64,000 nt of DNA from a virus. The DNA lies in the IMG/VR virus record IMGVR_UViG_3300043137_000362, positions 27,324-91,323 of that record; one strand, written 5' to 3'. The position numbers were made by a program, and so were the translations under genes. Position 1 is the stretch's first letter, and every line of letters starts with the position of its first letter. Shown one piece after another: positions 1-24,464 of this stretch. The notes under the pieces are model-generated. The model saw only the letters and a program-made list of their open reading frames with translations. It searched no databases and was not told where the DNA came from.

Positions 1-41
1 AACCATCTATCTTTGTGATATTCTAAATTTTTAATTTCCAT
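1..41 (-). CDS. N-terminal fragment of a gene cut by the window edge
   Basis: An ATG at 39-41 opens a reading frame that runs off the left edge; the visible residues are MEIKNLEYHKDRW. It overlaps the last 11 bases of the RmlC-like gene in another frame, the same tight packing seen throughout this cluster. Only 13 residues are visible, so no function can be given; its position suggests another member of the sugar or surface-modification operon. Confidence 0.5.
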   Translation of the reverse strand, partial: MEIKNLEYHKDRW

Positions 42-615
42 TTCTATCTCTTTTTGAAAGAATCGGTGATTGAACCGGCCAATCTATACCAAATCTCGAA
101 TCATTAAATACAATTGTTTTTTGTTTATTCTCATCATTATATTCACCCTTATACGCCATTTTATATGTGAATATCGAATCATCTTCCATTACAAAATGGC
201 CATTAGCAAACATAGGCGGTATTAAAACTTGAGTTGCAGTTTCGGGTGAAATTACAAACGATTCCCATTTACCATAATTGGGTTGTTGTTCTCTCATATC
301 TAACACTACCAAATAAATTTTACCATGAATACAACTTACTAACTTCCAAGTCTTTTCATCGTAATGTAATCCACGTAACACACCGAATTTTGATTTTGAG
401 TATCTATCGTGTTTAAACTCTAATCCTTCGTTACGTTCGTTTGCTGGTAATAATCTATCGTAATATTCTGAATGATATGTTGTTGATATTGAACCACGAT
501 ATTCGTGATATATAGATGGTTGAACAATCTTCACTTCTGGTAATACCGAAGCATTATAAAAGTGAAAATCGTTCCAATCTCTTTCTTTGTAAAATATACT
601 ACGTCCTTGTGCCAT
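31..615 (-). CDS. rmlC: RmlC-like sugar 3,5-epimerase (dTDP-4-dehydrorhamnose 3,5-epimerase family)
   Basis: The 194-residue product has the cupin core of the RmlC family, which epimerises nucleotide-linked 4-keto sugars during deoxysugar synthesis. Visible motifs are GVLRGLHYD (residues 78-86, with the presumed catalytic His83), a KLV...G.IY strand (91-101), the LDMR strand, IPP...GH near 132-140 and the closing GIDWP. Length is normal for the family. The exact substrate is unknown because rmlA, rmlB and rmlD are not in the window. The gene overlaps the SDR epimerase gene upstream by 17 bases, so the two are probably translated together and act on the same sugar. Confidence 0.88.
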   Translation of the reverse strand: MAQGRSIFYKERDWNDFHFYNASVLPEVKIVQPSIYHEYRGSISTTYHSEYYDRLLPANERNEGLEFKHDRYSKSKFGVLRGLHYDEKTWKLVSCIHGKIYLVVLDMREQQPNYGKWESFVISPETATQVLIPPMFANGHFVMEDDSIFTYKMAYKGEYNDENKQKTIVFNDSRFGIDWPVQSPILSKRDRNGN

Positions 616-1564
616 AACCTAATGGAAATCCATTCCTATATTTTGATGATAAATCTTGTATTAAAATTGTGTATGTTTTGATTAGTTCCACAATACCATC
701 ATCTAAACTCCAATCTGGACTCCAGCCTGTTGCTTCGATTTTAGCATTTGAAACCACATAATCTCTTTTATCGGGATCTTCATAAAAATCTGAATATGTA
801 ATTGCGAAATTGGGAACATATTCTTTAATTTTTTCTACCAATTGCTGTTTAGTTAAATTAGCAGATGATAATCCTACATTAAATACATCTCCACTAAATT
901 TTTCATAATTTTCTATCATATATTGGAATGTTTTAGCAACATCTCTAATATGAATGTAATTACGAGTAAAGTTTTTCTCAAAAATGGTAATATACTTATC
1001 AGTTAATGCTTTGTAAACAAATTCGTTTACCAATAAATCCATTCTCATTCTAGGTGAAGAACCGAATACCGTTGCTAATCTAATTGAAACTCCACCGATA
1101 TTTAAAACCTCTCTTTCTGCTTTTACTTTTGTCACACCATAATGTGAAATTGGGTTAAGTGGACTTTCTTCAGTGCACTCTCCGTTTTCTCCTATTCCAT
1201 ATCCACTATTTGTATTTGGATATACCACCCTTATTTTCGTATCTTTAACTATTTCACATATTTTTCTAACATGATCATAGTTTACTGCAGTTGCCAAATC
1301 TTTATCTCTATCGCAAGCGGGGAATCCTACGATTGCTGCCAGAGGAATTACTACATCGAATGATGGAACTAATTCTTCTAACAATTTATGATTTCTGACA
1401 TCTCCATAAATAAAATCAAAATTTTTATTATGTGAGTAGTGAATTAAAGATGTTTGATTATACATCAAATTATCTAATATAGTTACGCTATATCCACTAT
1501 TCAATAATCGCTCAGTTAAAACTGAACCCAAATAACCTGCACCACCTGTGATTAATACTTTCAT
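599..1564 (-). CDS. NAD-dependent sugar epimerase/dehydratase (extended SDR)
   Basis: This 321-residue protein is an extended short-chain dehydrogenase, acting on nucleotide sugars. It starts with the Rossmann motif GGAGYLGSV (7-15), has an acidic residue ending the second strand (D31), and carries the catalytic Tyr142/Lys146 pair (YGVTK), preceded by a TNSGYG motif near 118-123. The family includes UDP-glucose 4-epimerases and dTDP-glucose dehydratases; the sequence alone does not fix the substrate. Pairing with the RmlC-like gene implies a modified sugar nucleotide pathway. Its start overlaps the end of the upstream gene by four bases (ATGA type). Confidence 0.88.
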   Translation of the reverse strand: MKVLITGGAGYLGSVLTERLLNSGYSVTILDNLMYNQTSLIHYSHNKNFDFIYGDVRNHKLLEELVPSFDVVIPLAAIVGFPACDRDKDLATAVNYDHVRKICEIVKDTKIRVVYPNTNSGYGIGENGECTEESPLNPISHYGVTKVKAEREVLNIGGVSIRLATVFGSSPRMRMDLLVNEFVYKALTDKYITIFEKNFTRNYIHIRDVAKTFQYMIENYEKFSGDVFNVGLSSANLTKQQLVEKIKEYVPNFAITYSDFYEDPDKRDYVVSNAKIEATGWSPDWSLDDGIVELIKTYTILIQDLSSKYRNGFPLGYGTRT

Positions 1565-2979
1565 ATAAGACCCTTATCTATTACGTTGTTAAAAAATTCT
1601 TTTTGATATTGTTTTGTTGTATATAATTTATGTAATACTTTTTTATTATGAATCAAAACACTTTCCATCTCTTTAATCATTAAAGTCATTTCTTCTTTTG
1701 ATTTACTACACAAATCTTTTACAATATTTAAAATGATTTGAGTACGAGTTTTAAAATCTACCTCATCATCATATGATTCATCCCACCATTTACTAAATGT
1801 TTTAAATCCATATGATTTTAAAACAGATAATATTTTTGAATTCCCCATTATAATAAATGGATGTAAATTCATTATTGGTTTTGTAGTTTTTTCGGTTATG
1901 AAACAATATTTTGATTCGGCGTTTGTTTCCGAAACTATTGTAAAATAACTATTTTCATATTCATCTTTTCTACTTAAAAAATTATGAAAATCGGCAACCT
2001 TTTCACCATCATTATTATCTATAATTAATGGATAATAATTTTTATAGTTATTTTTTATATCCAATATATCTTCATATACTAAATTCAATTGTGGATACTG
2101 ATTTGAATTGTTTACAAAGTTTTCAAAATGAGGATTTTCAAAAAATGATATATAACCCTTATCTATTAAATTTTCTTTATATAATTTATTCAAAAAATAT
2201 GACCTATGTATTCTATCGGAATTTCGATTATACATTAAAAAGTATTTATCCTTAAAATCATAATTTATATCTTGTTGAATTGAATATTCGTAATCATTTT
2301 CAGTTATACTATTATTTGCAACACGTAATTCCGATATATACTTTCCAGCAGTTAGTAAATAATTGTTATTACAATAAACTGAAATTCTATGTTTGTATTT
2401 TTTTAAATTTATAGTATCATTTATAAAATTATTGTTTGTTGATATTATAACTTTATTTTTATGATTTATATTATGTTTATTTAAAAAATCATCAATTTTT
2501 GTTAAAAATGATTCATTATGTGGATACGCACCTTCCCTATAATCCATAAAAACTATTTTAAAGTTTTTATTATCTTTAATTAATTTTATCAATTGAGGTG
2601 AAAAAAAATCACTCAAATCAAATTTATCAGAACCATAATATTCATATAAATTATTTACATTTAAAGATTCTAATACCACTAAATACAATTGAGTTTCATC
2701 TATTTCTTGTTTCAATTCAGTAGTTAAACGATAATTTGTATTTGGTGTTTGTTCAACTATATAAGTTTGAAATCCAGCTGTTCTATTTAATTTAAAATCA
2801 CTTGGTGATTCTAATGGTGGATAGTATCCGGCAAATGATTCATGAATTTTATTTAATTTTTTTATAACATTTATACCAATAGTTTGTTTAGTATATCCAA
2901 AAGGCAAATAACCTTCGGGTGTTCTAAAATCAAACACAAAATTAGTAATTGGTATGTTATTTAAATCTCTGGCATCCAT
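1561..2979 (-). CDS. Putative glycosyltransferase with GT10-like C-terminal domain
   Basis: The 472-residue protein has no recognisable N-terminal half, but its C-terminal part (about 355-435) contains CFITEKTTKPIMNLHPFIIM followed by a YGFKTF...WWDESYD segment. This ITEK/P pattern resembles the nucleotide-sugar binding end of GT10 fucosyltransferase-like proteins and recurs in many uncharacterised marine phage proteins; that comparison is from memory. A related pattern is present in the protein at 22374-23474. Its neighbours are sugar epimerases and other glycosyltransferases, which supports a role in glycan assembly. Composition is very rich in Asn, Lys and Ile, more so than its neighbours. 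Confidence 0.55.
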   Translation of the reverse strand: MDARDLNNIPITNFVFDFRTPEGYLPFGYTKQTIGINVIKKLNKIHESFAGYYPPLESPSDFKLNRTAGFQTYIVEQTPNTNYRLTTELKQEIDETQLYLVVLESLNVNNLYEYYGSDKFDLSDFFSPQLIKLIKDNKNFKIVFMDYREGAYPHNESFLTKIDDFLNKHNINHKNKVIISTNNNFINDTINLKKYKHRISVYCNNNYLLTAGKYISELRVANNSITENDYEYSIQQDINYDFKDKYFLMYNRNSDRIHRSYFLNKLYKENLIDKGYISFFENPHFENFVNNSNQYPQLNLVYEDILDIKNNYKNYYPLIIDNNDGEKVADFHNFLSRKDEYENSYFTIVSETNAESKYCFITEKTTKPIMNLHPFIIMGNSKILSVLKSYGFKTFSKWWDESYDDEVDFKTRTQIILNIVKDLCSKSKEEMTLMIKEMESVLIHNKKVLHKLYTTKQYQKEFFNNVIDKGLI

Positions 2980-3674
2980 GAGTTGTCAAATTTAATTAAA
3001 TTATTTCCATTACCTGATATATCAAGTATTTTATATGGAGTTTGGTCTTCAAAATTAAATGAAGCAACAGCACTTTTATTTATTAAATTAGTTTTATAAT
3101 CTAAAAATATTTCTTTAAATTCATCTGCAGTAAATATTCTTGGTATAATTGAAACGTATGAAATTTCACCAAACAAAAAGTGATGAAATTTAGAATTAAT
3201 ATATCCCAAAGGCATTGATGCTCCAACCCATAATAAGGCGTTACTATAATCTACAATATTTCCTTCTAACTTTATTTTATTAGTTTTACCATTACAATAA
3301 ATAAATGTTTCATTTTTATGAACATCGACTGAAAATCCGATTTCAAGTTCTTCTTGTAAATCCGTAATATAAATTGAATTTACATATTCAGTATTCTCAC
3401 TATCATCGTTTTGTGTCCAAATTTTAGCATTAATCCAACAATCATTTTTTTCCGTTTTGAATGCAGTAATTCCCATATGCATTCCATTTATCACAACAAT
3501 ACCCGATTGGTTAGTATCACCATTAGCATCCATTTTATCCCAATCAACTTTTACTTTTGTTAAGAAAGAAAAATTATCAGTTGTTATTTTTTTTATTGGA
3601 TATGTGCTCAATCCATATTGACTATCGGGTGAAATAAACCACGAAGTTTGGCCATCTAAATTTATTTTACTCAT
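2961..3674 (-). CDS. LamG/concanavalin-A-like domain protein
   Basis: The 237-residue protein looks like one LamG-like (laminin G/concanavalin A) beta-sandwich from end to end: DGQTSWF at the start, FIYCNGK in the middle, FGEISYVSIIPRIFTADEF and a final DISGNGN segment. Such domains bind carbohydrate or protein ligands, often with calcium. No signal peptide is present. The same DLSGNGTNG-type ending and fold occur in the two neighbouring galactosyltransferases and in the baseplate protein at 28771-33429. It overlaps genes on both sides by 4 to 19 bases. It may be an accessory subunit of the glycosyltransferases; that is inference. Confidence 0.7.
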   Translation of the reverse strand: MSKINLDGQTSWFISPDSQYGLSTYPIKKITTDNFSFLTKVKVDWDKMDANGDTNQSGIVVINGMHMGITAFKTEKNDCWINAKIWTQNDDSENTEYVNSIYITDLQEELEIGFSVDVHKNETFIYCNGKTNKIKLEGNIVDYSNALLWVGASMPLGYINSKFHHFLFGEISYVSIIPRIFTADEFKEIFLDYKTNLINKSAVASFNFEDQTPYKILDISGNGNNLIKFDNSWMPEI

Positions 3675-5122
3675 AGTTGTATTGTTTTTGTGAATTCAAA
3701 AAATTCAGCTAATTCTGGGAATGTTTTATTAAAATTAGTTCCTCTACGTTTGTCGTGTTCTGTGAAATACTTACCAAAATTGTATCTATTATGCATTTGA
3801 GTAGATGAATCTTGTGGTGAAATCATCCAATCATATGTTCTTTTAATTTTTTGTATTTCAATATCGGAATATCCAATAAATATATTTTCAAAAAGAGGCA
3901 CTCCTAAAAAATCCGTAAGTTGGGCTTGTTTAAAAATAGTTTCACTCCATTGATATGGTAATACTTGCACAGTTTGATGTAATGGATAGCGTAAATATGA
4001 TGTATCCAAGAATACAGCAGAATTCCAATATCTATCCGTAGAACCATACTCCTTTTTCAATCCATAAACTCCATTAATTAATTTATCGTAATTTGGAACT
4101 GATAATGCATTATATGTGACCATAAAAGTTAAATTAACTCTTGGACATTTACTCAATATTTTGTTTACATTATCCCAAAAACGATTAAACTCTAATCCAG
4201 TACGAATGTATTCGGCCTGTTCTCCCCATGTATCTACTGATGTGAAAATAATAAATTCATTTACTCTATTCTCATCACAAATTTTTGAAACTTTTTCAAT
4301 AAATCTATCTATCAACTTATCAGGTACACCTAAGTTTGAATTTATAGCAAGATTTAATTTTCTATTTGGATTTGGATTTTCGATGATGTAATCCAATACA
4401 TCCCATGTATCTTTTGACATTAATGGTTCTCCACCCGTAATTCTAAACGTATGCAGGTCTTTATATAAATCAGGCCACCATTTCCAAAACGCATCTACAT
4501 ATGGATTTTGTTCCGTTTGTTTAAATGGCATTTTATTTTCTGCAATTGCATATTCCAAATTATTAAACTTATCAGTTGTTGGATATGCACCATGCTTTTC
4601 AATTTCTTCCATCCATTTGGTTGAAAACGCCGGAGAGCAATATGAGCATTTAAAATTACATGCGTTTGAAAAAGCAACTTCAACGTATTTTGGGTTGTAA
4701 TCTGCTCTCCAATCTAATTTTTTAATTTCATTGTAATGGGGTAATGACCAACTTTCAGATGATTTAAATGTTCTATCTGAAAATCTTTCTGAATTATCTT
4801 CTACATTCCAGCAGTAATCACATTCTGATGGTCTTTCACCTTCTAACATTTCTTTTCTTCTTCTTTTTTTGTAAGTAGTATTGTGAAGTGCAGATGGATT
4901 TCTAGCAATTTCACTTTTAGAAATCGCATGAGTACGTGGGTGATGACATGAATGTGTATGACCCAATTGTAGGTGCATCGTTACTTGTGTCCATTTTGCA
5001 AGACACATACCTTTACCAATAACATCTAATTTTTCTTTTACTTCAACATAGAACGGATTTTCTCCACCAAATTGTTTTTTTAATTTGTCAGTATTCTCTT
5101 GTTGTTTTTGTTTATCTTCCAT
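3671..5122 (-). CDS. Radical SAM protein, twitch/SPASM-like
   Basis: The 483-residue protein carries the radical SAM 4Fe-4S motif C155-x3-C159-x2-C162 (CNFKCSYC), followed by GGEP (RITGGEPLM), the SAM-contacting motif. Further cysteines lie before the core (C40, C59, C101, C104 in CDYCW), which may bind an auxiliary cluster as in twitch or SPASM enzymes; this order is unusual because auxiliary cysteines normally follow the core. Related proteins occur in marine T4-like phages without known substrate. Placed between LamG and galactosyltransferase genes, it may modify a sugar or a surface protein. The start is ATG at 5122 with A/T-rich leader and no clear Shine-Dalgarno site. Confidence 0.85.
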   Translation of the reverse strand: MEDKQKQQENTDKLKKQFGGENPFYVEVKEKLDVIGKGMCLAKWTQVTMHLQLGHTHSCHHPRTHAISKSEIARNPSALHNTTYKKRRRKEMLEGERPSECDYCWNVEDNSERFSDRTFKSSESWSLPHYNEIKKLDWRADYNPKYVEVAFSNACNFKCSYCSPAFSTKWMEEIEKHGAYPTTDKFNNLEYAIAENKMPFKQTEQNPYVDAFWKWWPDLYKDLHTFRITGGEPLMSKDTWDVLDYIIENPNPNRKLNLAINSNLGVPDKLIDRFIEKVSKICDENRVNEFIIFTSVDTWGEQAEYIRTGLEFNRFWDNVNKILSKCPRVNLTFMVTYNALSVPNYDKLINGVYGLKKEYGSTDRYWNSAVFLDTSYLRYPLHQTVQVLPYQWSETIFKQAQLTDFLGVPLFENIFIGYSDIEIQKIKRTYDWMISPQDSSTQMHNRYNFGKYFTEHDKRRGTNFNKTFPELAEFFEFTKTIQL

Positions 5123-5135
5123 ATATTAATATATA

Positions 5136-6602
5136 TTACAATTTTACATTTATCATTTTTGCTGAAGGGGTTAGTTCTTCAATACTAACTAATTCATAGT
5201 TTAGTTGAGCAATTCCATCGGATTTGTAATCCCATTCACCTTGTTGCATTTGTAAAACATATCTTCTTTCATTTCTAGCGGTAGTTTCACCCTTTGCCCA
5301 TTTATCAACTCCACCTACGTTAATTAATCCCTCATCAATGTGGGGTAAACACCTTAATCTACCAGGTATTCTATGTGGAATTGTTGTATATGGAATTTTT
5401 ATTTCTTCCGTTCTTTCCTCACAGCGATTGATTGAACCATTTGTTCCATTTCCACTCAAATCAATTGCAACATTTGGTGAGTTTTTTTGGTTTGAATGAT
5501 TAAAATTATAATGTAGTTTCAATCCATCTGTTGGGGAATCTGTATGTATTTTTTCAATTTCAGTTGGTGATAATGCTCTATTCCAAATTTTAACATCTGC
5601 TATATCACCTTTAAACCAACGATTGACTTCATTCTTACCAACCGATGTAGTTGTTCCGATAAACCAATCTTCTAAACCATAACTCTTCAAACGATTTTGG
5701 TAATGTAGTGGTGATTGGGTACCAGTTCCATGTCTTGCATCGGATTCTTTACCATTTAAATAAAAATGTATATTTTGAGATATAGTATCAACGGAAAGTG
5801 TCACCCAACTCCATTGATTTTCATAACGTTTCATCCATTGATATAAATGAGTTTGTTCATTATCCCAAAGTTGTGCAGTATATGCTCTACTATTATTATA
5901 TGAAATACCATAATCATAACCTGGTCTTCTAATGATTGGATATTCACAAAATCTTCTTTCAGTATCACCTACTAACCAAATTGGAACTTTTTCTTCTTGT
6001 TGATTTGCTCGAACTAAAACTGAAATTGTATGAGAACGCGATGTGACGTTTCTTAAATCTGAATGTTTATCAATTTTTATATGTGATGATTTTCCATTAA
6101 AATGTAAAAATGTTTGAGGTGTTTGGGGAAATTCCATATAAGAATTATTAGCATAACCTTCTAATTGACATCGCCAAAACAAATCATCATCCTCCATACC
6201 CCAATCCCAATAATCATTAGAATACCCATTAGTCTTCTCAACTTGTTCTTTGGAGAATAATACCGCACCACCAAAATACTCTTCGTATTTCAACTTATAA
6301 TCCATTTGAGAGATGTTTGTAGCGATGTGTATGGGATGTTCTTTTGGAAATGAGTAATCACATCCTTCTTCGGGTATCATATCTATATCATGCCAAACTA
6401 TGTAATCACATCCATCTTTGAATGCTTGTTCAGCTGCGATATTTTTCATTGCACCTCTATTGAATAATTTATCATCGGTTTGATGACCAAAATACATACA
6501 ATATTCAATACCTTGTTCTTCTAAGTATTTTCCAACGATTGGAATGAATTCTTTTAAATGAGATTCTCTATTTCTATATGGGACACAAACTCCTAATTTC
6601 AT
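5136..6602 (-). CDS. GT7 galactosyltransferase with LamG domain nested inside the catalytic fold
   Basis: The 488-residue protein is a beta-1,4-galactosyltransferase (GT7) relative. Visible GT7 motifs are YRNR (9-12), FNRG (47-50), the metal-binding DID (72-74) and YWDWGMEDDD (131-140). At about residues 165-395 a LamG-like sandwich intervenes (LHFNG start, WFKGDIADVKIWNRALS, DLSGNGTNGSI end). After it, about 425-488, the C-terminal GT7 strand returns: ARNERRYVLQM...SDGIAQLNYELVSIEEL. In ordinary GT7 enzymes this tail follows the EDDD motif directly, so the LamG is an insertion, not a C-terminal add-on. It is tandem with a homologous gene and overlaps its stop at 6602. Confidence 0.85.
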   Translation of the reverse strand: MKLGVCVPYRNRESHLKEFIPIVGKYLEEQGIEYCMYFGHQTDDKLFNRGAMKNIAAEQAFKDGCDYIVWHDIDMIPEEGCDYSFPKEHPIHIATNISQMDYKLKYEEYFGGAVLFSKEQVEKTNGYSNDYWDWGMEDDDLFWRCQLEGYANNSYMEFPQTPQTFLHFNGKSSHIKIDKHSDLRNVTSRSHTISVLVRANQQEEKVPIWLVGDTERRFCEYPIIRRPGYDYGISYNNSRAYTAQLWDNEQTHLYQWMKRYENQWSWVTLSVDTISQNIHFYLNGKESDARHGTGTQSPLHYQNRLKSYGLEDWFIGTTTSVGKNEVNRWFKGDIADVKIWNRALSPTEIEKIHTDSPTDGLKLHYNFNHSNQKNSPNVAIDLSGNGTNGSINRCEERTEEIKIPYTTIPHRIPGRLRCLPHIDEGLINVGGVDKWAKGETTARNERRYVLQMQQGEWDYKSDGIAQLNYELVSIEELTPSAKMINVKL

Positions 6603-8002
6603 TATATACCTACGTTTACAATTTCTATGTGTTTATCTATTTTTTCAATTCCATGAACTACAAACTGAAGTGTCGATAATCCATCGTTTTTTAATAATTC
6701 TAAATTTTCAGTTACTTCGTTTGTAAATCTAAGTTGATTCCAACGTGTAGCTTCGTTTTTCCAACCATTTCCAACAAATCCATTTTCTTCATGTTTCAAT
6801 GATTTAAATAATGATTTTCGTCTATATGGAATCTGAATGATTGTGGATGGGTTGATTTCCCTTTTTACAATTTCACATTTAATAATTTTACCATTATTAT
6901 CATTATTTGATAAATCAGTTAAATGGTAATTATCAATAAATTCAGAATCATAATGTAATTGTAAATTATCAGTTGGTATATTTGTTTTACTTTCAACTAT
7001 CGATTGTATTTCCGTATCTGTTAAAATTCTATCGTAATATGCAAAGTATTCAAAATATCCTTTAAACCAATTTGGAATTATTTCTCTACTAGGATTACCA
7101 ACTCCCAAATACATAAATTCTTCTTTCCTATAAGTTGGATAGAATCTTCTAATTTCAGTAGTTTCTCCAATAAATTTAGCATCTTGATACATTTTAATTG
7201 TAGTTGATGCAGAATCGTAAGTTAGAGTAATATTAGTTCTATACGTTGGTAGTATTTCACTATTTAGATATATCGCTTTTCTAGTTGAATCAAATACACA
7301 AAAATTATATCTATTAAAAGAAGTGTATGATATTGCAAAATCATAACCAGGAATACTAAATATAGTAAATTCATCTGATTGTTTGGTGTGATCTAACTTT
7401 ATATCATTTGGTTCGAAACAAATTGTTATTGAAAAATCTTCAGAAAAATTAATTGGATTTTTTGATTTAACATATGCATCAACTCCATTAAATTTTAATA
7501 CACTTTTATTATTTACAATATTTTTAAGTTTTGTGGTTTGAATTCCTATATTTTGATTTTTACATCTCAAAAATAAATCATCATCTTCAAATCCCCATCC
7601 CCAATATTTGTTTGAGTATCCATCTATCTTTTCAAAGTCTTCAACTGAAAACATCGTTACTCCACCAAAATAAGTATCAAATGATTCTCTCATTTTTTCG
7701 GTGGTTTCTACTTCAAAATCAGTAGCAAGATGTATTGGATTAAGTGAGTAAGTATAATCTACATCTAATGGAATCATATCTACATCGTGGAATACTACAT
7801 AATCACAATGATACTTTTTTGCAAAAGTAAAACCGATATTAAGTAACATTCCACGATTAAATAATTTAGCATCATCTTGTTGAACTATTATTATTTTATA
7901 ATCAATATCTGTATTATTTAGATATTTTGAAATAGTTCGATTAAATACTGCTAAATGTTCATGTCTATTTCGGTAAGGAACAATTATTCCTAATTTAGCC
8001 AT
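6602..8002 (-). CDS. GT7 galactosyltransferase with nested LamG domain, paralogue of the next gene
   Basis: This 466-residue protein has the same architecture as its downstream neighbour: YRNR (10-13), FNRG (48-51), DVD (73-75), YWGWGFEDDD (133-142), then a LamG-like insert at about 168-385 (LKFNGVDAYV; WFKGYFEYFAYYDRILTDTEI) and a GT7 tail with RWNQLRF...KNDGLSTLQFVV. The insert shares PGYDFAISY with PGYDYGISY of the neighbour, so both domains probably came from one duplicated ancestor. The sequences are otherwise well diverged, suggesting different acceptors. TAATG couples its stop to the next gene's start at 6602. Catalysis on a glycan is known for the family; LamG targeting is inference. 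Confidence 0.84.
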   Translation of the reverse strand: MAKLGIIVPYRNRHEHLAVFNRTISKYLNNTDIDYKIIIVQQDDAKLFNRGMLLNIGFTFAKKYHCDYVVFHDVDMIPLDVDYTYSLNPIHLATDFEVETTEKMRESFDTYFGGVTMFSVEDFEKIDGYSNKYWGWGFEDDDLFLRCKNQNIGIQTTKLKNIVNNKSVLKFNGVDAYVKSKNPINFSEDFSITICFEPNDIKLDHTKQSDEFTIFSIPGYDFAISYTSFNRYNFCVFDSTRKAIYLNSEILPTYRTNITLTYDSASTTIKMYQDAKFIGETTEIRRFYPTYRKEEFMYLGVGNPSREIIPNWFKGYFEYFAYYDRILTDTEIQSIVESKTNIPTDNLQLHYDSEFIDNYHLTDLSNNDNNGKIIKCEIVKREINPSTIIQIPYRRKSLFKSLKHEENGFVGNGWKNEATRWNQLRFTNEVTENLELLKNDGLSTLQFVVHGIEKIDKHIEIVNVGI

Positions 8003-8234: not shown

Positions 8235-9086
8235 TTAAATTTGAACAATTATTCTTGATAATCTATCCCATTTAGAATAATCCCAATGTGAATTATGAAC
8301 CATCCACTCCATTTTAAATTCGGAATTATTCATATCAATTTTCCAATCATTAATTTCGATTGCTTTATACATTTTTAGATATTCTTGCCAAAAGGTATAA
8401 TCCTCCTTTGTTTCGGCTACTTCCTTCAAACGTTCTAAAACAGTTGAATCCCATTTAAAATGATGAACTTGTATTAACCCCTCACCTCTACCAACGGGGT
8501 AGCGTTTTTTATGTTTAATATTGTATTTACCCCAACTATTAGTTCCATCACCAAAATCTACATAATGTTGACCAGGTGTTACATTAACCGAACCTTTCAT
8601 TACACATACTTTGTTAGGGCATGCACCACTCAATGGATACCTGAAAAATCCAGCATTACCGAATAATTTCCAAACGTTAGAGGTTGGGGTTACGTTTGGA
8701 AATTCACCACCTTCACCGATTCTATCTAAAAACCCACCTGTAATAAATTCCCATTCGTTTTCTTCACATTCGGAAATCATTTCTTTTAGTGGTTTTGGGT
8801 AAACTTGAAGTTCATCATCATCTGAAACTATCCACCATTCATTTGGTTTTGTTGATTTTACTAAATTATATAAATCAGTAACACGTTCCCAATTAAATTT
8901 AGGTTCGGTGACAACCATATAAGGTGTAATACCTAAATCAGTAATTTGTTTTAATATACCATCGTTTTCAGATTGTCTATAAACTACAACATATACCTCA
9001 TCAACTATATCTTTATAGTGATTCAACATATGAGGCAACATAGTAATATTATGTCCTACAACCGTAACTAAATTTATTTTTGACAT
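8235..9086 (-). CDS. Family 2-like glycosyltransferase (GT-A fold)
   Basis: The 283-residue protein starts with a beta-strand and nucleotide-binding-type segment (INLVTVVGHNITMLPHMLNH) and has WWIVSDDDEL, with DDDE at 89-92 serving as the likely DxD metal site. This layout fits the GT2/GT92-type proteins that handle a short glycan from a cytosolic sugar nucleotide. No membrane anchor is visible. The C-terminal half is Trp- and Lys-rich and not assignable. It overlaps the upstream methyltransferase by 13 bases, so the two probably work on one product. Donor and acceptor cannot be read from sequence. Confidence 0.68.
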   Translation of the reverse strand: MSKINLVTVVGHNITMLPHMLNHYKDIVDEVYVVVYRQSENDGILKQITDLGITPYMVVTEPKFNWERVTDLYNLVKSTKPNEWWIVSDDDELQVYPKPLKEMISECEENEWEFITGGFLDRIGEGGEFPNVTPTSNVWKLFGNAGFFRYPLSGACPNKVCVMKGSVNVTPGQHYVDFGDGTNSWGKYNIKHKKRYPVGRGEGLIQVHHFKWDSTVLERLKEVAETKEDYTFWQEYLKMYKAIEINDWKIDMNNSEFKMEWMVHNSHWDYSKWDRLSRIIVQI

Positions 9087-9844
9087 CTTCTAACAAGTGT
9101 TAGACCAGTTGATGCTGGTTTATTTTTTTGTATTCCAAAATTAAATAAATCAAATGTTTCCCAATCTGAATTATCTTTAAGTTCTTGTGCGAATTTAATT
9201 GGTCCATGCCAATCATCAAAATCACCCCTATCCTTTACTTCATTTGTTATAATGTATTTATCACCATAATTTGGGTCTGTATCGTGTATTGAAATAATAC
9301 CATTTGGTGAAAGAAGTTGTGAATACATTTCGAAATCATTTTTCACATCCTCATATGAATGTCCAGCATCGATGTGTAAGTAATCAATCTGAATATCGTT
9401 TAATACGAAAAAATTGTGAAATGCTTCTTCAGTAGTTTTGGTAATAATACGTGGATGAAACGTTCTTCTAAAAAATGATTCTTCTCTTGCCCAATTTACA
9501 TTTCCACCAACACCATTCATCGCATCAACTACAAATGTTGCACCAATATCACCCCAATTGTAATCACCATTACCTTCAAAGATTTTGGCTTCATATAAAT
9601 CAACTCTAGCTTGAGTCATTAAACGAGGGATGAATCCACCACCACTGCCTAAACATACGCAATTTTTAGCTCGCATATACTGAATTAGTGAATAAACAAT
9701 CAACCCATCCCCTAAGTGTAAATCAGTTGCCCCATGAGACCAACGATACGGGACAGGTGAATATTCTTCTTCGTGAGATTCGTTAAATTCTAAATTGTTC
9801 GTAAGATTATTTCGAAGATAATCCAGTTTGTAGAGTGGCTCCAT
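9074..9844 (-). CDS. SAM-dependent methyltransferase (class I)
   Basis: The 256-residue protein has the class I methyltransferase motifs: VCLGSGGGFIPRL (about 63-74, SAM-binding glycine loop), an acidic strand end (LYEAKIF), DYLHIDAGHSYEDV, and GIISIHDTD. This pattern matches the methyltransferase-24/cephalosporin hydroxylase-like group that often sits in polysaccharide gene clusters. Substrate unknown; a sugar hydroxyl is the best guess from context. The nearest promoter-like motifs lie about 140 bases upstream, leaving a long leader. Confidence 0.75.
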   Translation of the reverse strand: MEPLYKLDYLRNNLTNNLEFNESHEEEYSPVPYRWSHGATDLHLGDGLIVYSLIQYMRAKNCVCLGSGGGFIPRLMTQARVDLYEAKIFEGNGDYNWGDIGATFVVDAMNGVGGNVNWAREESFFRRTFHPRIITKTTEEAFHNFFVLNDIQIDYLHIDAGHSYEDVKNDFEMYSQLLSPNGIISIHDTDPNYGDKYIITNEVKDRGDFDDWHGPIKFAQELKDNSDWETFDLFNFGIQKNKPASTGLTLVRRCQK

Positions 9845-11283: not shown

Positions 11284-13437
11284 TTAATTAATCGGACCAA
11301 GTATTACACCCCCACCACCCGAACAATCTCCATAATAAGTAAAGTATCCACTTGAATCTATTGAACCATATACTGAACCATCGGAGTAAGCAGTATTATA
11401 TCCATTGAATACTGAACCATCTGAATTATAATAAGTTTGACCGCTTTGTAATGAACCCAAATAAATGTAGGTGTATATTAGGAATGTATCTCCATTTTTA
11501 TAATTTGCACACGAACCATCACCACTATCAGCTGCAATACTGAAGCTATAATCAGGTGTAGGATTCCCTCCTCCACTTGATGCTTTTGTTTGAGTTACTA
11601 CTAACCCAACTGGTTGTAATCCATATCCACTCTGTGGTGTTATTGTTATAGTTCCACTTCGATTTGTGCTAGTATCGGAATATGATTCAATTGCAACATT
11701 TATATTTGTAGTACCAGTTCCATAAGTAGAAGATGGTGTAATCCAACCTTGATCATCACCTACACTCCACACCATTGAAGATGGTGAAGTTGTTATTGAT
11801 ATTGTTTGATTACCACCATCGGAATTAATTACAAATGATGATGGACTTACACTAAACACTACTGGAAACGCTTGAGTCACTACTGAAGATGCACTGCCTT
11901 GACCTGCACTATTTGATGCTCTAAATGTAATTGTGGCGGTTTTATTAGCACCGGAATTATTATTATTTATAGCATATACACCAACTTGAAAAGAACCAAC
12001 TCCTGCATTATTTGCAGTTGCAGTCCAAATATTACCATATGGATTTAATACTTCCACATTCCAATCTATTGCAATAAATGCAAAATCACCACCACCATTC
12101 ATCGATATTTCAGCAGTTGATGGAGTTGTTCCCCCATTTACGTTTGCAGTAACTGTCATATAGTTGTAAGACCCATATGAGTTATATGCAATATCGTTTG
12201 GTGTTGTAATTGAAACGGATGGGATTACTGCAGGTGGTGTTCCCACATCTTGACTAAGTGTTGCAGAATCTGATACACCTCCACCTACTTTTGATGCGGT
12301 TATCGTAACACTTCTAGCATTTCCGTTATACCCACCTTCACCCTCATAGTTTGGATTTAGGACATATACAAAACTTCCATTTCCTTGGCCCGAAGTAGTG
12401 GTTGGTGCATATGCCCAACTAGAATCATCTGATATTTGCCACGAAGTATTCCAAACCGGTGATGTTTTTACATATAAAGTATAAGATGTTCCCTGTCCAC
12501 TTAAATTATATACATTTGTAATATCATTTCCATTAACATCGGTCAAACGGATGTATTCATCCGTAGCAGGTTGAACTTTGCCCATATCAAACGTAATTGT
12601 TCCACCACTATTAGTGTATGCATTTGGTGATGATGGTATTCCAATTGTAACTGAAATCAATCTCGATGTTGAACTTGCAACTTCTGCAAAAGAAGTTGGT
12701 GATGGTGAAAATGAAGTAGCATTACCCAATGAGTAATTAATAGAACCATATTTATCAATCGATACATCACCTGTCCAATCTCCCATTGTAAATGTTGCCG
12801 CGGGTTGCGTAACTACTACATCTTGTGGAGATGTTTGTTGTCCTGCATTATAATAACCGCTTGGAATTGTCAATTGGATATTTATAGTTCGTTGGGTATT
12901 TACTCCGACCGTATAATATGATGATGGTGAATTAAATCCAATACCTGCAGCGTTTCCTAAATTATAAATCACAAGACCATTACTAGCAACCGATACATTA
13001 CCAGTCCACATACTATATGAAAATACCGGTGCTGCTTGTTGGGTAGTTGTTAAAGTTCCACTAACCGTTCCGGAATTTGTATAACCGGATGGAATGTTTA
13101 TTACTACAACTACACTTCTCGTAGTGTCTGTATCTACTAATGGGAAATATCCGTTTGAATAACCTGTTGAAAATGTAATGCTTTTTATGCTACCTTTCGT
13201 TGGAGTAGGAGCAGTAACGCCCCCGTTAGAATCCACTCTAAATCCAGTCAATCCTGCAGTAGTGAATGTAAACGGCCCATTGTAAGTTTTTCCATAAAAT
13301 TCATCCATACTATGTGGTTTAGTTAAATTTAATTTTGTAGCAGAAGAATCTAAATCAATTTGTGCTCCTGCACTTTGATTTAATGCGATATTCAAATCAT
13401 CAAAACTAAGTTCACCTGAAGATTTTATAGTTCCCAT
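11284..13437 (-). CDS. BACON/Ig-like repeat adhesin, tail appendage
   Basis: The 717-residue protein begins with a short phage-appendage N-terminus (SSGELSFDDLNIAL...MDEFYGKTY), typical of proteins attached to a tail or fibre. Three tandem beta repeats of about 80 residues follow (54-290; each with a W/Y-TG-V-S pattern, an IPSGY...N segment and a QPA-type end), then BACON/Ig-like domains at about 290-405, 405-530 and 530-620, the last with VNSDGG-type and WITPS motifs. The final 90 residues are Gly/Tyr/Ser-rich and end with a GDCSGGGG motif, a possible receptor-binding tip. BACON domains bind glycans or mucins. TAATG couples it to the tail fibre gene upstream. Confidence 0.75.
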   Translation of the reverse strand: MGTIKSSGELSFDDLNIALNQSAGAQIDLDSSATKLNLTKPHSMDEFYGKTYNGPFTFTTAGLTGFRVDSNGGVTAPTPTKGSIKSITFSTGYSNGYFPLVDTDTTRSVVVVINIPSGYTNSGTVSGTLTTTQQAAPVFSYSMWTGNVSVASNGLVIYNLGNAAGIGFNSPSSYYTVGVNTQRTINIQLTIPSGYYNAGQQTSPQDVVVTQPAATFTMGDWTGDVSIDKYGSINYSLGNATSFSPSPTSFAEVASSTSRLISVTIGIPSSPNAYTNSGGTITFDMGKVQPATDEYIRLTDVNGNDITNVYNLSGQGTSYTLYVKTSPVWNTSWQISDDSSWAYAPTTTSGQGNGSFVYVLNPNYEGEGGYNGNARSVTITASKVGGGVSDSATLSQDVGTPPAVIPSVSITTPNDIAYNSYGSYNYMTVTANVNGGTTPSTAEISMNGGGDFAFIAIDWNVEVLNPYGNIWTATANNAGVGSFQVGVYAINNNNSGANKTATITFRASNSAGQGSASSVVTQAFPVVFSVSPSSFVINSDGGNQTISITTSPSSMVWSVGDDQGWITPSSTYGTGTTNINVAIESYSDTSTNRSGTITITPQSGYGLQPVGLVVTQTKASSGGGNPTPDYSFSIAADSGDGSCANYKNGDTFLIYTYIYLGSLQSGQTYYNSDGSVFNGYNTAYSDGSVYGSIDSSGYFTYYGDCSGGGGVILGPIN

Positions 13438-16400
13438 TATCGGTTTTCTTTTAACTCTTTAATTTCAGTTTTCAATTCCTTTATAGCTTGAATAAGTAAT
13501 GGAACTACTTTTTCATATCTAACTGCCATATAACCATCATCTCTAGTCCCAACCGCTTCGGGTAGAACTTCGTTGATTTCTTGTGCAATTATACCAATAT
13601 CATGTTTTCTGAAAAAGAATCCATCTTCACCTTTACCACCACTTTCAGTATCAATAAATTCATCTGTCCAATCAAATTCAACACCATTTATTTTATCAAT
13701 TTTATCCAATGCATTTTCAATCGGAATTATATTTTCTTTTAATCGTTTATCCGATGTATAAAACGCAGTGATGTTACCAGTAGCAGTTATAGCACCACCA
13801 ACTTCTAACATTGTTCCCGTTCCTGCATTTCTATCCATCTTTACATATTTTGATGAATCTCTACCAACCTGAATACCACCTGCAATAATTTCCACAAATG
13901 AATTTACCTCAGCAGTTGACCATGTGCAATCTGGCCGATTAGATGAATTTATATAAACACCTTGAGTGTATGTAGATTGTATATCAATATCTACGTTTTG
14001 AACCAATCTAAACGTATCCCCATTTCCAATAATGGTAATAGTTGAAGTATAACCATTACTCCCATAATACCCAGTCATTGGTCCTTGCACGGGCCCGTAT
14101 GCAGCAGAACTACTAGAACCCAAACTATACTTTATTGCCGGATTTGTTGTGCTTTCCAATGTATACCAGTATGAGTATCTAGCTTGATATATAGTATAAG
14201 TGGTGTAACCGTCATTTGGTATATAAAAACAAAAACCAGATGAATTATCAGTTAATGAAAATGAATATGTTTTACCATTAGTCGAAACCAATGCAGAATT
14301 ATTTATTGTAGTTGAAATTGTAGCGTTATCATAATAAGTAGCACCATCAAGTGGGCCAGTATAAGTTCCATTGTTTGAATATGTTCCACTTAAACTACCA
14401 AATGATGAATTTTGATTAATTAAAACACGAGGTGCATTACCCGAATCATTTAATGTAATCGTTTTTGAAGTTGAATCTAAGATAATAGCGTTATTATTGG
14501 ATGATAAGGTATTCGGTCCAATTGCCCAACCACCAATATATCCCGTATTAACCGTTAATGAGCCACCAAACGAACCTGAAGCTGCGGATAAGTTTCCTGC
14601 GAAAACACCGGCATTGGCATATATAGTTCCGGTAAATGTTCCACTTGTGGCCGTTACTGCTCCGGTAATATCTACCGAAGTTGCAGTTAAATTACCATTT
14701 GAATCTACTTTGAATGGTGAATTTGTTCCTAATGCGATACCATCATTACCTAAATAAACTCCAGCTGCATTTGATGCATATGATGATTTGGTACCTGTAT
14801 AAAATTGACTACCGCCAATTGAGAATCCACCGATATTTCCACTCGGTGCTGATAGTGCACCTTTGAATGATGCTGCTCCAGCAGATGATATTTTGAATTC
14901 TTTCGCAGAAATCCAACCCGCACCTAAAGTTATATCTCCAGCGTTAGTAGTGTAATTATTATCCGAACCTATTGTTCCTCTATATATTGCATTAGCAGAA
15001 AGTGTCCATCCACCTACATCACCTGAGTTATGTGAATCGCCATTACTAAATGAACCAACTTTACCACCATCATTAGCAGTTGCTGGATTTTTAATAGTAA
15101 TAGTTCCCACAATGCCCAACGTAGAACCATCCCAAGTTAAAGAGTTTGTAGCGGATTTTAACGACATTTTATACACACCACTATCACTACCAATGTATAT
15201 ACCATTTGCGTTATAAACTCCAGCTACGGTCTGACCCAATGAAAAATATGGATACGCAGTTCCACCCGAAAGTGTTATGTTTGCAGATGAAACTCCACCG
15301 CTATTATTAGTTCCAATATTTAATGTGCTCTGAACATATGAATCTTCAAACAAACCAATTTTAGCTGCTACGAAGAAATCTTCCGAACCAAGTGATTCCC
15401 AATAAGAACCAACGGTTGGTGGACCAGTTACACCCGTTGCAGTAGAGGTATGTTGTTGGGTTGTAGCATAATAAGTTCCAGTCCCACTTGCAGGATATAA
15501 TACCACATCTCTTCGACCTGTTCCTGCTCCCGTACTAAATTGATAAACTCTACCTTCAACCCATGGACCAGTATGAACAACACCAGGACCAGTCTGTCCA
15601 TCCAACGTCACTAAAACTGAATGAGTTTGTGGAACTGATACTTGAACTCCGGTTGATGTAGTATAATTTACATCAAATGTTGTAACGATACCCGAAGGTG
15701 TTGTTGGTGTAGTTGGGGTTATTGTTTTGTTATTGTTATTCGTTCCATTTACTACATTTGAGATATAAAAACTACCAGAAGTATAGGGTGACGAATTATC
15801 ATATGGATATATCGTATTACCCTCAACTACGGAAATTGAAATTGTAGTAGGTGTTCCGTAAACTCCTGTATTACTTCGTGTCACAATTTGTGATGGTGGA
15901 GTTGATACAACAACACCAGGAGCTCCGTTTGAACCATCTACACCTTGTGCTGCGACACCAATACTAAAATTAATAGTTTGAGAATCGGGTGTTCCTTCGG
16001 AGTTGATATAACTGATTAACGCAGAACCACTTGCAGATTGTGATAATGAACCTGTGTAAATAATATTAGCAGTTTGTGCAGATTGTGAAAAATATGCACT
16101 TACATTACTAATAGTAAATTTATTTGTTCCATTACCATAGGTGTAGTTAGATGCACCTTCTTTAACCGAAACGTTTATTGGTAAGGGTGTCCCAACTCCA
16201 CTTAATGAACCTGATGTGATTGTTTGTGATTGTGGATTTCCAAATACTGAAATAATTGGTGGAGTTTTCTTTGCTTTTGAATATGATACAATTTTTGAAA
16301 CATCAGTTGTATCACCATATCCATCCTTATATCTAATATTTAATTCTAACGAACCCGTATCCGAATCCAATCTTGTTATATAATAATCTGCAGTAGAATA

Positions 16401-18980
16401 ATCTAAAGAACCAGTTAAAACGTTTGATGGGATTGCTGAGATTATATCAAATGAATTACTAACAATTAATCCATTACTATGAGTAATAGTTTCACCCCCA
16501 ATTTTTACACTTACCGAACCACTTGTCAAACTAAATGAACCACTACTTACGAATCCAGTCGATAATGCAGGTAATGTTGCGTTTTCATTTGAAAGTGATA
16601 CAGATAATCCATCTAATATTTTTACCGGTGTTATTTTTACAATATCCGAAAAATTGTTTCCAAATTGGTCTGAACCTGTAAATTCGTAAGTAGTTTCTCC
16701 TGCAATATATGGATACGATGTTCCACTTAATTGATAGGTAGAAACTCCCGTAGTTGGATCATCTGATAAGTGAGTTAATCCCGGCTTTCCACTACCCGAA
16801 TTAATTGTTATTGGAGTAGTTGTTGATGCTAAATTTTTCCTTTTAGCTTGAACTATGATATTCTGACCACTTGGATTTAATGATAAATCCGTTGCCTTAT
16901 AAATAAATTGATTTGTATTTGAATTTACAAATAAACTTGGTGCATTATCACCATCCTCAAAACGATATATTGTTTCATATTCATTTAATCCCTCGCATGA
17001 TGCGGTATAAACAATTGAACCAACTCTAATAGTATTTACACTACCTGAATAATCCAAAGAACCACTAAAATCATGTATATGTAATAATCCACCACCATCT
17101 CCTTGATTAGTAATACCACCTGGATATTGAATTTGATTAGGCCAATTAACTCCATACTCTAACGTACCTGATGCTGAATAATTTACAGGATCAATCCAAT
17201 TACCCAACATATCATATGCAGATGAATAAAAGAATACCGAACCAGTTAGACCATTTCGTTGTGTAGAAAGGTGTAATGATTGATATGGTGGATTAGCGAA
17301 CGACCCCGTACTAAAACGGAATGCAGTTCTATCTGATGAAAATGATAGGAATTTAGTGCTTGCTAAGAAATTATTACCACCGGTGAATGTTTTTGTTGAA
17401 TTGACAACTACGGGAATGTAGTTATTATTTATATCATAAAATTCAAATCTAAAATCAAAAGTTTCAACCGGAATGTTTCTTGGAATTTCTTGCACAATTG
17501 TAAATTCATCCGGTGAGAATGATGTTTCTTGTGCATTTTGTAATGAGACATTTGATACATACCAATCATCTCCACTAAACTCTAAAACCAATTTAGCATT
17601 TGAAGTATTTGTTGCTAATATGTTTTGAGAAATAGATTGTCTTGTTTTGTATATATCTGAACCGCTTACCGTTAAAAAGGTTTGTTGGTAATCTGATGAA
17701 CTGAAATATGCTTTGAGGGTTTTTTGCCCGTCTATTGACCCGCTTAATAAGGTTTTGAATGAAAGAGTATATTCAACATCTTTCGAAACGTTAAATGATT
17801 CGGATGTTATTAATTGTTGAACACCTCCAATGCCGGAATTGTAATCAACTTTTACGGATGCATTAAGTATATCAACGTTTAATGACGTAGGGTGGTCATT
17901 GGATGACGTTACCCAATAAGTTGATAAATTAGAATCAGTAAAATTGCCATACGAAATATCAGTATCCAATGTTGATGTTATATCTCTTAGTAATTCAGAA
18001 GCCTCTAATTTAGATTCTTGTACAAATTGATAATCACCGACATCATTACGTGATTTACGATAAACCTTAACTCTAGCAACATCACCTACGAATGTTTTTA
18101 ATTGTTGAATATTAATTTTAGCGAATGAACCTGTCAACGCAGATTCACCTATAATTTGTCCTTCAACATATTCAAATGAGGTTGTGTAAGGTGTAGGTGG
18201 GAAATCGGAAACAATACTACCAGTTGTATATGGAATATTTACTAAGATTTCCTTATTATTAAGAACTTCCTTAACCGTTGCAGAATATCCCAATGATGGG
18301 ATAGAAATTATATTTTCATCTACCGAAGATGTCCAATTTGAATTATCTTCAATTTTTAATTTATATAATGTTCCTGCACTCCAATTATTTATATTACTAC
18401 CTGCAGTGGGAATTTCAGAAATACCCGAAACTGAACCACTCTGTGTTATATTTGGGATTGTTTTAGAAAAAATAGGTTTAACCAATTCATCAATTGAAAT
18501 GGTTGGTCTTTTGTAAAATCTAACAATAGTTTCATTATTTAGATTTTTATTTATTTGAAACGTTCTTTCCCACTTTACATTGTAAGTCCCTTGCCATTCA
18601 GATGGAATTGGCAATACTAATCCATTTGGGGAAACATAGGTTTTTAATTCACCTAAAATAGTAATTTTTCCAATACCAATCGGAGTATCTTCATACACAT
18701 GAACTGCAATTAATTTAGATAAACCTTCATAGTATTCTGGTATACCATTACCCGGTTCAAAATAAATGGGATTACCATTTACATCTAAAATTTCAATTTT
18801 AATTTCAGTTGTTTCTTTTAGATACTCCGAACCTTCAATTAAGAATCCGTTTTTACCACCGGTTAAGGTTTCTTTCAAATCACTAATTCTGAAATATTCA
18901 GACGTTGAGTTATTATCAACTAAAAAAGTTGAATAATTTGAAAGATTCAAAAATGGTGAGTATGATTTTATTATTGCCAT
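13437..18980 (-). CDS. Large tail fibre with C-terminal S74 intramolecular chaperone
   Basis: This 1847-residue protein is the longest in the window. The N-terminal two thirds are Ser/Thr/Gly-rich beta domains; a short collagen-like stretch (GVDGSNGAPG) lies near 1010. About 1290-1500 are repeated segments of the GGFSIGG/GGWAIGP type seen in trimeric beta-helix fibres. The C-terminus is a peptidase S74 chaperone: SDKRLKENI starts at Ser1743, with Lys1748 as the partner, then DIGIIAQEI and RYEKVVPLLIQAI, ending in a coiled coil. In this family the chaperone cleaves itself off before the Ser after trimer folding. It is the likely receptor-binding fibre. A GGAG site precedes the ATG. Confidence 0.9.
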   Translation of the reverse strand: MAIIKSYSPFLNLSNYSTFLVDNNSTSEYFRISDLKETLTGGKNGFLIEGSEYLKETTEIKIEILDVNGNPIYFEPGNGIPEYYEGLSKLIAVHVYEDTPIGIGKITILGELKTYVSPNGLVLPIPSEWQGTYNVKWERTFQINKNLNNETIVRFYKRPTISIDELVKPIFSKTIPNITQSGSVSGISEIPTAGSNINNWSAGTLYKLKIEDNSNWTSSVDENIISIPSLGYSATVKEVLNNKEILVNIPYTTGSIVSDFPPTPYTTSFEYVEGQIIGESALTGSFAKINIQQLKTFVGDVARVKVYRKSRNDVGDYQFVQESKLEASELLRDITSTLDTDISYGNFTDSNLSTYWVTSSNDHPTSLNVDILNASVKVDYNSGIGGVQQLITSESFNVSKDVEYTLSFKTLLSGSIDGQKTLKAYFSSSDYQQTFLTVSGSDIYKTRQSISQNILATNTSNAKLVLEFSGDDWYVSNVSLQNAQETSFSPDEFTIVQEIPRNIPVETFDFRFEFYDINNNYIPVVVNSTKTFTGGNNFLASTKFLSFSSDRTAFRFSTGSFANPPYQSLHLSTQRNGLTGSVFFYSSAYDMLGNWIDPVNYSASGTLEYGVNWPNQIQYPGGITNQGDGGGLLHIHDFSGSLDYSGSVNTIRVGSIVYTASCEGLNEYETIYRFEDGDNAPSLFVNSNTNQFIYKATDLSLNPSGQNIIVQAKRKNLASTTTPITINSGSGKPGLTHLSDDPTTGVSTYQLSGTSYPYIAGETTYEFTGSDQFGNNFSDIVKITPVKILDGLSVSLSNENATLPALSTGFVSSGSFSLTSGSVSVKIGGETITHSNGLIVSNSFDIISAIPSNVLTGSLDYSTADYYITRLDSDTGSLELNIRYKDGYGDTTDVSKIVSYSKAKKTPPIISVFGNPQSQTITSGSLSGVGTPLPINVSVKEGASNYTYGNGTNKFTISNVSAYFSQSAQTANIIYTGSLSQSASGSALISYINSEGTPDSQTINFSIGVAAQGVDGSNGAPGVVVSTPPSQIVTRSNTGVYGTPTTISISVVEGNTIYPYDNSSPYTSGSFYISNVVNGTNNNNKTITPTTPTTPSGIVTTFDVNYTTSTGVQVSVPQTHSVLVTLDGQTGPGVVHTGPWVEGRVYQFSTGAGTGRRDVVLYPASGTGTYYATTQQHTSTATGVTGPPTVGSYWESLGSEDFFVAAKIGLFEDSYVQSTLNIGTNNSGGVSSANITLSGGTAYPYFSLGQTVAGVYNANGIYIGSDSGVYKMSLKSATNSLTWDGSTLGIVGTITIKNPATANDGGKVGSFSNGDSHNSGDVGGWTLSANAIYRGTIGSDNNYTTNAGDITLGAGWISAKEFKISSAGAASFKGALSAPSGNIGGFSIGGSQFYTGTKSSYASNAAGVYLGNDGIALGTNSPFKVDSNGNLTATSVDITGAVTATSGTFTGTIYANAGVFAGNLSAASGSFGGSLTVNTGYIGGWAIGPNTLSSNNNAIILDSTSKTITLNDSGNAPRVLINQNSSFGSLSGTYSNNGTYTGPLDGATYYDNATISTTINNSALVSTNGKTYSFSLTDNSSGFCFYIPNDGYTTYTIYQARYSYWYTLESTTNPAIKYSLGSSSSAAYGPVQGPMTGYYGSNGYTSTITIIGNGDTFRLVQNVDIDIQSTYTQGVYINSSNRPDCTWSTAEVNSFVEIIAGGIQVGRDSSKYVKMDRNAGTGTMLEVGGAITATGNITAFYTSDKRLKENIIPIENALDKIDKINGVEFDWTDEFIDTESGGKGEDGFFFRKHDIGIIAQEINEVLPEAVGTRDDGYMAVRYEKVVPLLIQAIKELKTEIKELKENR

Positions 18981-24432: not shown

Positions 24433-24464
24433 TAAAGATACGAAATTATTTTGATAATTCCAAA
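24433..24464 (-). promoter_or_regulatory. Bacteroidota-type promoter for the primase operon
   Basis: In the sense strand a TTTG box (24461-24464) is followed after exactly 20 bases by TATCTTTA (24433-24440), a near match to the -7 consensus TAnnTTTG with only the last base changed. The start codon at 24412 lies 20 bases further on. The same arrangement occurs at five other places in the window. Confidence 0.75.

Follow-up and report, generated by a model that had tools for sequence, protein, structure and literature searches.

Enzymes of glycosyltransferase family GT7 and LamG domains are both well known, and glycosyltransferases with an attached lectin domain are common; in the polypeptide GalNAc-transferases (GT27), the lectin domain is appended behind the catalytic domain. 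The lectin domain guides acceptor choice in GT27 enzymes and in GnT-IV, and the GT7-related enzyme B4GALNT3 requires its lectin-like PA14 domain for activity (PMC11254600). In human B4GALT1, the lid comprises residues 338-365 (PMC6198961). Bovine H347, equivalent to human H343, is a strong Mn2+ ligand of B4GALT1 (PMC7565966, PMC6198961), and M344 is a weaker metal ligand (PMC6198961); we use the motif names xED and C-His of Taujale et al. (PMC7185993). At the lid and acceptor site of B4GALT1, α-lactalbumin changes acceptor choice, forming lactose synthase (PMC7565966). In pelagimyophages, a host recognition cluster located in the structural region, before the neck and packaging genes, combines tail fibres with glycosyltransferases and radical SAM genes, and the host O-chain has been suggested as the substrate that its glycosyltransferases modify (PMC7029224). 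In a limited literature search, we found nothing relevant on the combination of GT7 and LamG in phages, and the PDB yielded no GT7 enzyme with a lectin-like domain located between xED and C-His.

The locus described here belongs to an uncultivated tailed virus of bacteria; the window, that is, the whole stretch of DNA analysed, spans 64,000 nt and is a portion of a 91-kb virus record. Two adjacent open reading frames, P1 and P2, are present as listed in a preliminary description of this DNA, with the stop codon of P2 and the start codon of P1 overlapping by one base (TAATG). Judging from sequence, both products are GT7 enzymes with a LamG domain set into the catalytic domain. The corresponding features, with the evidence for each, are as follows.

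5136..6602, minus strand: P1, GT7 enzyme with nested LamG, 488 aa (135 P1-type relatives)
6138..6602, minus strand: P1 GT7 core part 1, residues 1-155 (Pfam, PDB, conservation, Foldseek)
5397..6137, minus strand: P1 nested LamG, residues 156-402 (Laminin_G_3, Foldseek, missing from compact relatives)
5139..5396, minus strand: P1 GT7 core part 2, residues 403-488 (profile alignment, model, conservation, couplings)
5340..5342, minus strand: H421 codon of P1, C-His and predicted Mn2+ ligand (135/135 P1-type proteins)
6602..8002, minus strand: P2, GT7 enzyme with nested LamG, paralogue of P1, 466 aa
7529..8002, minus strand: P2 GT7 core part 1, residues 1-158 (Pfam, PDB, Foldseek)
6848..7528, minus strand: P2 nested LamG, residues 159-385 (Pfam, 3.5e-7; hhalign to the P1 insert)
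6605..6847, minus strand: P2 GT7 core part 2, residues 386-466, with H404 (alignments, conservation)

The Pfam matches to Glyco_transf_7N (P1, E 9.9e-17, 61.3 bits; P2, E 8.9e-22, 77.6 bits; cut-off 27) and Glyco_transf_7C (P1, E 8.8e-20, 70.6 bits; P2, E 1.6e-20, 73.0 bits; cut-off 23) are confined to residues 1-158 of the two proteins and are followed by Laminin_G_3 at residues 170-349 of P1 (E 1.8e-14, 54.6 bits) and 173-333 of P2 (E 3.5e-7, 30.9 bits; cut-off 27.6). Matches in the PDB are β-1,4-galactosyltransferases (E 1e-25 to 1e-29, residues 2-171), with few others, all weak; the first core part of P1 matches B4GALT1 with an E of 8e-28. This part carries P8, R10, R12, F47, R49, D72-x-D74, Y109, W134 and E137-D138-D139-D140. 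The motifs YRNR, FNRG, DxD and WG-EDDD, read earlier at the front of both proteins, are kept almost throughout the P1- and P2-type proteins. However, EDDD, previously taken to bind the metal, is the xED motif with the catalytic base, and the metal motif is DxD (D72-x-D74).

What follows the LamG is more than the single C-terminal strand of the preliminary description, which was right that the chain returns to GT7. The segment behind the insert, about 80 aa long, holds a metal-binding His and the lid as well as a helix and the two final strands; in P1, it includes P409, R411, H421, the helix 439-452, D462-G463 and the strands 470-478 and 481-487. A query from which the insert is omitted aligns continuously, from core through tail, with B4GALT1/7 in most chains, and a profile of 50 relatives gives a second, colinear match at the C-terminal end of B4GALT1. 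The tail shares with compact bacterial relatives the pattern R-x-G-x-F-x-x-L-x-H, then N, then DGLSxLxY; the DGL/DGI motif precedes the terminal strands in the alignment with both B4GALT1/7 and the compact GT7s. In the latter, the corresponding segment of about 80 aa comes right after the EDDD segment, as had been asserted for ordinary GT7 enzymes. H421 of P1 and H404 of P2 align with bovine H347, that is, human H343. Because these residues fall on the C-His of B4GALT1, the LamG is placed between xED and C-His: the seam does not lie in the loop directly after EDDD, as first thought, but follows the next strand, upstream of the lid, at approximately residues 329-336 in human B4GALT1 numbering (our own count), immediately before the lid. 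The insert itself was recognized correctly, but its length, given earlier as about 220 residues, is about 247 in P1 and about 227 in P2.

Confident structural models of P1 (pLDDT 93.0, pTM 0.87) and P2 (pLDDT 93.4, pTM 0.90) show the GT7 order of elements in both catalytic parts (DSSP). Foldseek aligned the first ~150 residues with B4GALT1/7, mostly at 1.2-2.6 A (for P1, 1.2-2.4 A with most B4GALT chains), the alignment stopping at the insert, which matched 4dqa, pentraxins and PAPP-A. The possibility that the tail stands apart from the GT7 core is not borne out: the tail block has a pLDDT of 77-98 and the topology of a helix plus two strands, in agreement with the alignment and with covariation. 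The latter was assessed in the 300 nested proteins (effective number 170) by mean-field coupling analysis and read as a contrast between region pairs only, because within-paralogue shuffles, used as the null, also remove relatedness. Core-tail pairs contributed 11 of the top 50 couplings (1.7x expectation), for example T42-V472, M52-V486, I55-S473 and D130-R443, with Q59-Y469 and M156-Y405, the latter spanning the neck, at somewhat lower ranks; pairs linking the LamG to the core or to the tail were depleted among the top couplings, to about 0.2x. The means of the ten best couplings were 1.39 for core-tail, 1.02 for core-LamG and 0.94 for LamG-tail pairs. Covariation thus ties the tail to the GT7 core and, together with the tail alignment and the modelled topology, supports the original claim that the LamG is nested within the catalytic fold.

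To assess the generality of this layout, we scanned IMG/VR, where the P1 query retrieved 178 related stretches, the P2 query 27 and the core at least 343. All fetched loci together yielded 378 distinct proteins. A nested layout is found in 300 complete ones, whose inserts measure 200-339 aa (mode 250-259); another 59 are compact, the gap being 0-9 aa, and no intermediate was seen among the 378. The rest are 2 proteins with a LamG and a tail below threshold, 6 compact proteins without a tail match and 11 partial ones. Thus, no homologue with a LamG at the C-terminus only, the arrangement that would speak against nesting, was seen among the 378, the closest being the 2 LamG-bearing proteins without a tail match above threshold. 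A purely C-terminal LamG or a non-GT7 tail is ruled out by the compact alignments, the layout of the relatives and the core-tail couplings. The layout is most unlikely to be an artefact, in which a GT7-LamG gene fusion would have a tail that resembles GT7 by chance. In favour of such an artefact, the tail of the nested profile scores weakly against B4GALT1 alone (8 bits); however, the tail profile matches compact homologues directly behind their core at up to E 2.2e-8, the metal His, N and G of the tail are invariant or nearly so, core and tail are coupled, and the layout is not a chance one because it is common to 300 complete relatives.

In trees built on core and tail only, with the root unknown, one branch separates nested from compact proteins, indicating a single change of layout in the 136-row tree (SH-aLRT 92); the same branch is recovered in a 78-row tree from which the long branch L238 was left out (UFBoot 90, SH-aLRT 89, 93% of bootstrap trees). 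The simplest history suggested by these sequence trees, with moderate support, is that the LamG was probably inserted once, before the P1 and P2 copies diverged. Searches with P1, P2 and the compact protein of locus L115 (tblastn) yielded no match among the isolated phages of the collection searched, and in a BFVD fold search LamG and GT7 matched separately, none of the 50 matches listed evidently combining both. Nevertheless, unannotated database entries with the nested layout very probably exist. The only apparently cellular members found are nested GT7-LamG genes in two of 168 Fibrobacterota genomes (L113:4941-9903 and L111:409-3038), both beside a GT2 gene and the former also beside an ABC exporter. 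The phage cassette is also present on contigs binned into Pelagibacterales or Flavobacteriales MAGs (L110, L112, L114), which probably are phage contigs that were mis-binned or are linked to a host.

The catalytic residues are strongly conserved. P8, R12, F47, R49, D72, D74, W134, E137, D138 and H421 are invariant in the 135 P1-type proteins, and their equivalents are kept in 107-108 of 108 P2-type proteins (H404 in 107/108). In contrast, the second lid ligand of B4GALT1, bovine M344, is not kept, being C in P1-type and L, S, K or V in P2-type proteins; this Met is no defining feature of the GT7 family as a whole. The position of Y289 in B4GALT1 sets donor choice, a Tyr selecting UDP-Gal. Since its equivalent, Y109, is Tyr in 133/135 P1-type and 107/108 P2-type proteins, sequence predicts UDP-Gal as the donor of P1 and P2. 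In many loci, a third nested copy of the GT7 gene lies upstream of P2 (57 proteins, e.g., L042:2492-3970, L066:2775-4226, L078:2748-4202), which is absent from the window. In this copy, motifs are often eroded (FNRG to FNYG, EDDD to EDLD): the R228 equivalent is Y in 28/57, the positions matching E317 and D319 are variable and 7 proteins have lost the C-His. The pattern suggests a pseudoenzyme or a changed function.

The inserts of P1 and P2 are homologous to each other (hhalign, E 4.6e-39) and diverge faster than the core, with mean identities of 0.46 versus 0.74 in P1-type and 0.31 versus 0.59 in P2-type proteins, which could reflect relaxed constraint. Positions conserved in at least 95% of P1-type LamG domains include N237, S238, Y254, W256, K258, W264 and N283. 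Two further LamG-like proteins of the window had been pointed out earlier, and both are there. The stand-alone protein at 2961-3674, in which Pfam misses the LamG, is homologous to the nested domain over ~200 residues (hhalign; hmmsearch with third-copy inserts, 1.2e-18). In the baseplate giant, a 1552-aa protein at 28771-33429, a LamG lies at residues 875-1032 (Pfam, E 2e-7), with only distant similarity to the insert (hhalign, E 0.02-0.1), which does not favour it as the source of the insert. P1 also matches the LamG-containing phage virion-protein profile phrog_8510 (E 4.4e-6).

P1 and P2 are embedded in a conserved gene cassette. Across 80 loci, the common order is methyltransferase, GT2, (third copy), P2, P1 and twitch radical SAM, with P2 and the radical SAM gene each found in 79/80, GT2 in 76/80 and the methyltransferase in 75/80; often, a free LamG and two sugar epimerases come next, and in some loci a tail fibre gene lies ahead of the cassette. 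In the window, the neighbours are as follows.

31..1564, minus strand: rmlC-like 3,5-epimerase and NAD-dependent sugar epimerase/dehydratase (TIGR01221, 2.1e-35, and epimerase families, all under equivalog cut-offs)
2961..3674, minus strand: free-standing LamG protein, 237 aa (hhalign to the insert, E 5.1e-17 and 2e-21)
3671..5122, minus strand: twitch-domain radical SAM protein (NF033640, 351.9 bits, cut-off 170; synteny)
8235..9086, minus strand: GT2-like glycosyltransferase (PF13704, E 7e-5, under its cut-off; synteny)
9074..9844, minus strand: methyltransferase-like protein (synteny; function by sequence reading only)
13437..18980, minus strand: tail fibre protein, upstream of the cassette (phrog_5668, 2.4e-35)

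An Ig-like protein and another glycosyltransferase are encoded between the tail fibre gene and the cassette, in conserved order, and further sugar enzymes, then terminase and portal genes, lie past the start of the window. No cassette protein has a clear transmembrane segment or export signal by hydropathy. By comparison, none of 34 compact viral GT7 loci has GT2 or radical SAM neighbours, versus 8 of 12 nested loci in the same scan. No PDB relatives of the twitch radical SAM protein were found; its gene (NF033640) is multiplied in some loci (L022, with six matches, L035, L040 and L070). A recurrent sugar-island protein family without a Pfam or PHROG match is represented at 1561-2979 of the window and at L306:12875-14356 and L306:17603-18742. 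Away from the cassette, the window encodes a NodU/Nol-like carbamoyltransferase (47192-48916; phrog_1601, 2e-107), a possible sugar-modifying enzyme, and a 155-aa ORF (24446-24913) matching an NAD synthetase family and two homing endonuclease families (phrog_447, phrog_7363, phrog_314).

The explanation we consider best, and hold to be rather probable as a whole, is that P1 and P2 are GT7 UDP-Gal transferases in which a LamG at the root of the lid sets acceptor choice during synthesis of a cassette-encoded glycan. The two proteins would be soluble, cytoplasmic, inverting UDP-galactose-dependent transferases that bind Mn2+ and UDP-Gal as B4GALT1 does. The LamG would hold an acceptor glycan or glycosylated protein beside the lid and set acceptor choice in cis, much as α-lactalbumin does in trans for B4GALT1. 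P2 and then P1 may act successively on one glycan made by the cassette (GT2, methyltransferase, radical SAM, epimerases); as a working assumption, the target would be a host-recognition glycan, borne either by the tail fibre of the virus itself or by the envelope of the host, for which we see about equal odds. The earlier suggestion of a LamG that may guide the enzyme towards a glycan or a protein of the virion is reasonable, and help in acceptor choice from the root of the mobile lid is its most likely role. An active role is plausible because B4GALNT3 loses activity without its PA14 domain (PMC11254600). For an acceptor role, we count the position of the insert just before the lid and its faster divergence than the core, yet with Y254, W256, K258, W264 and N237 kept. 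Against it, LamG folds elsewhere also bind proteins or merely space domains. Indeed, the LamG might be a structural spacer or oligomerisation domain without a ligand, tolerated in a permissive loop, as its faster divergence and depleted couplings with the remainder of the protein would allow; however, all 300 nested proteins fall into a single group in which no later loss is seen, and P1-type proteins keep several aromatic and polar LamG positions at 95% conservation or more, which makes a mere spacer unlikely. A fuller scenario, which we put forward only tentatively, is that the LamG came from the free gene of the operon and was spliced once at the base of the lid, the nested glycan-binding domain controlling acceptor choice or lid closure in cis in a widespread operon with two active copies and, often, a third, decaying one.

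With regard to the target, the enzymes could act in the cytoplasm and decorate the virus's own virion, on its tail fibre or another surface protein, with the LamG docking on a virion glycoprotein. The cassette follows a tail-fibre gene in conserved order, its proteins lack clear membrane or export signals, and LamG occurs in the baseplate giant and in the virion-protein profile phrog_8510; however, the pelagimyophage cassettes proposed to modify the host surface typically lie close to tail genes too (PMC7029224), and the baseplate LamG is only remotely like the insert. We regard a virion target as quite possible, a little short of an even chance, and give much the same credence to modification of a host surface glycan (LPS core or O-chain), for example, against superinfection. 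For the latter, pelagimyophage clusters with glycosyltransferases and radical SAM proteins provide a precedent, the role having been proposed there (PMC7029224), and the nested enzyme resides beside GT2 in two Fibrobacterota genomes, once also beside an ABC exporter. Conversely, the cassette has no flippase, polymerase or membrane anchor, and the Fibrobacterota copies, restricted to 2/168 genomes, may be acquired.

More generally, the GT-A fold tolerates a whole lectin-like domain between the catalytic base and the metal-binding His, at the hinge of the lid. The natural seam visible in compact homologues makes the LamG cleanly removable, so that the role of the nested domain in acceptor choice can be tested directly. 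In environmental phage contigs the family is common, as seen in the core scan, and it has a conserved cassette near tail-fibre genes; with no isolated phage carrying it in the collection searched, it points to an unstudied glycosylation pathway of tailed phages.

Among known systems, B4GALT1/7 (CAZy GT7; PF13733 and PF02709) share with P1 and P2 the fold, motifs, donor and metal residues, xED base, C-His and terminal helix and strands, but these eukaryotic Golgi membrane enzymes have nothing inserted between xED and C-His, and the M344 ligand of B4GALT1 is not kept in P1 and P2. The closest sequence relatives are the compact bacterial and viral GT7s (e.g., loci L115, L117, L126 and L227), which have the same tail motif, RxGxFxxLxH...N...DGLSxLxY, but are mostly ~210-290 aa long and lack the insert. 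B4GALNT3/4 likewise join a GT7-related enzyme to a lectin-like domain, although the latter is PA14 rather than LamG and the enzymes are from the animal Golgi. In GT27 enzymes and GnT-IV the lectin is appended, whereas in P1 and P2 the LamG is nested. The lactose synthase partner acts in trans and has another fold, whereas the LamG is covalently attached, so this parallel is an analogy only. Finally, although VrlC and gp14 were not identified, the locus resembles the pelagimyophage host recognition cluster in the order of tail fibre, glycosyltransferases, radical SAM, sugar enzymes, terminase and portal.
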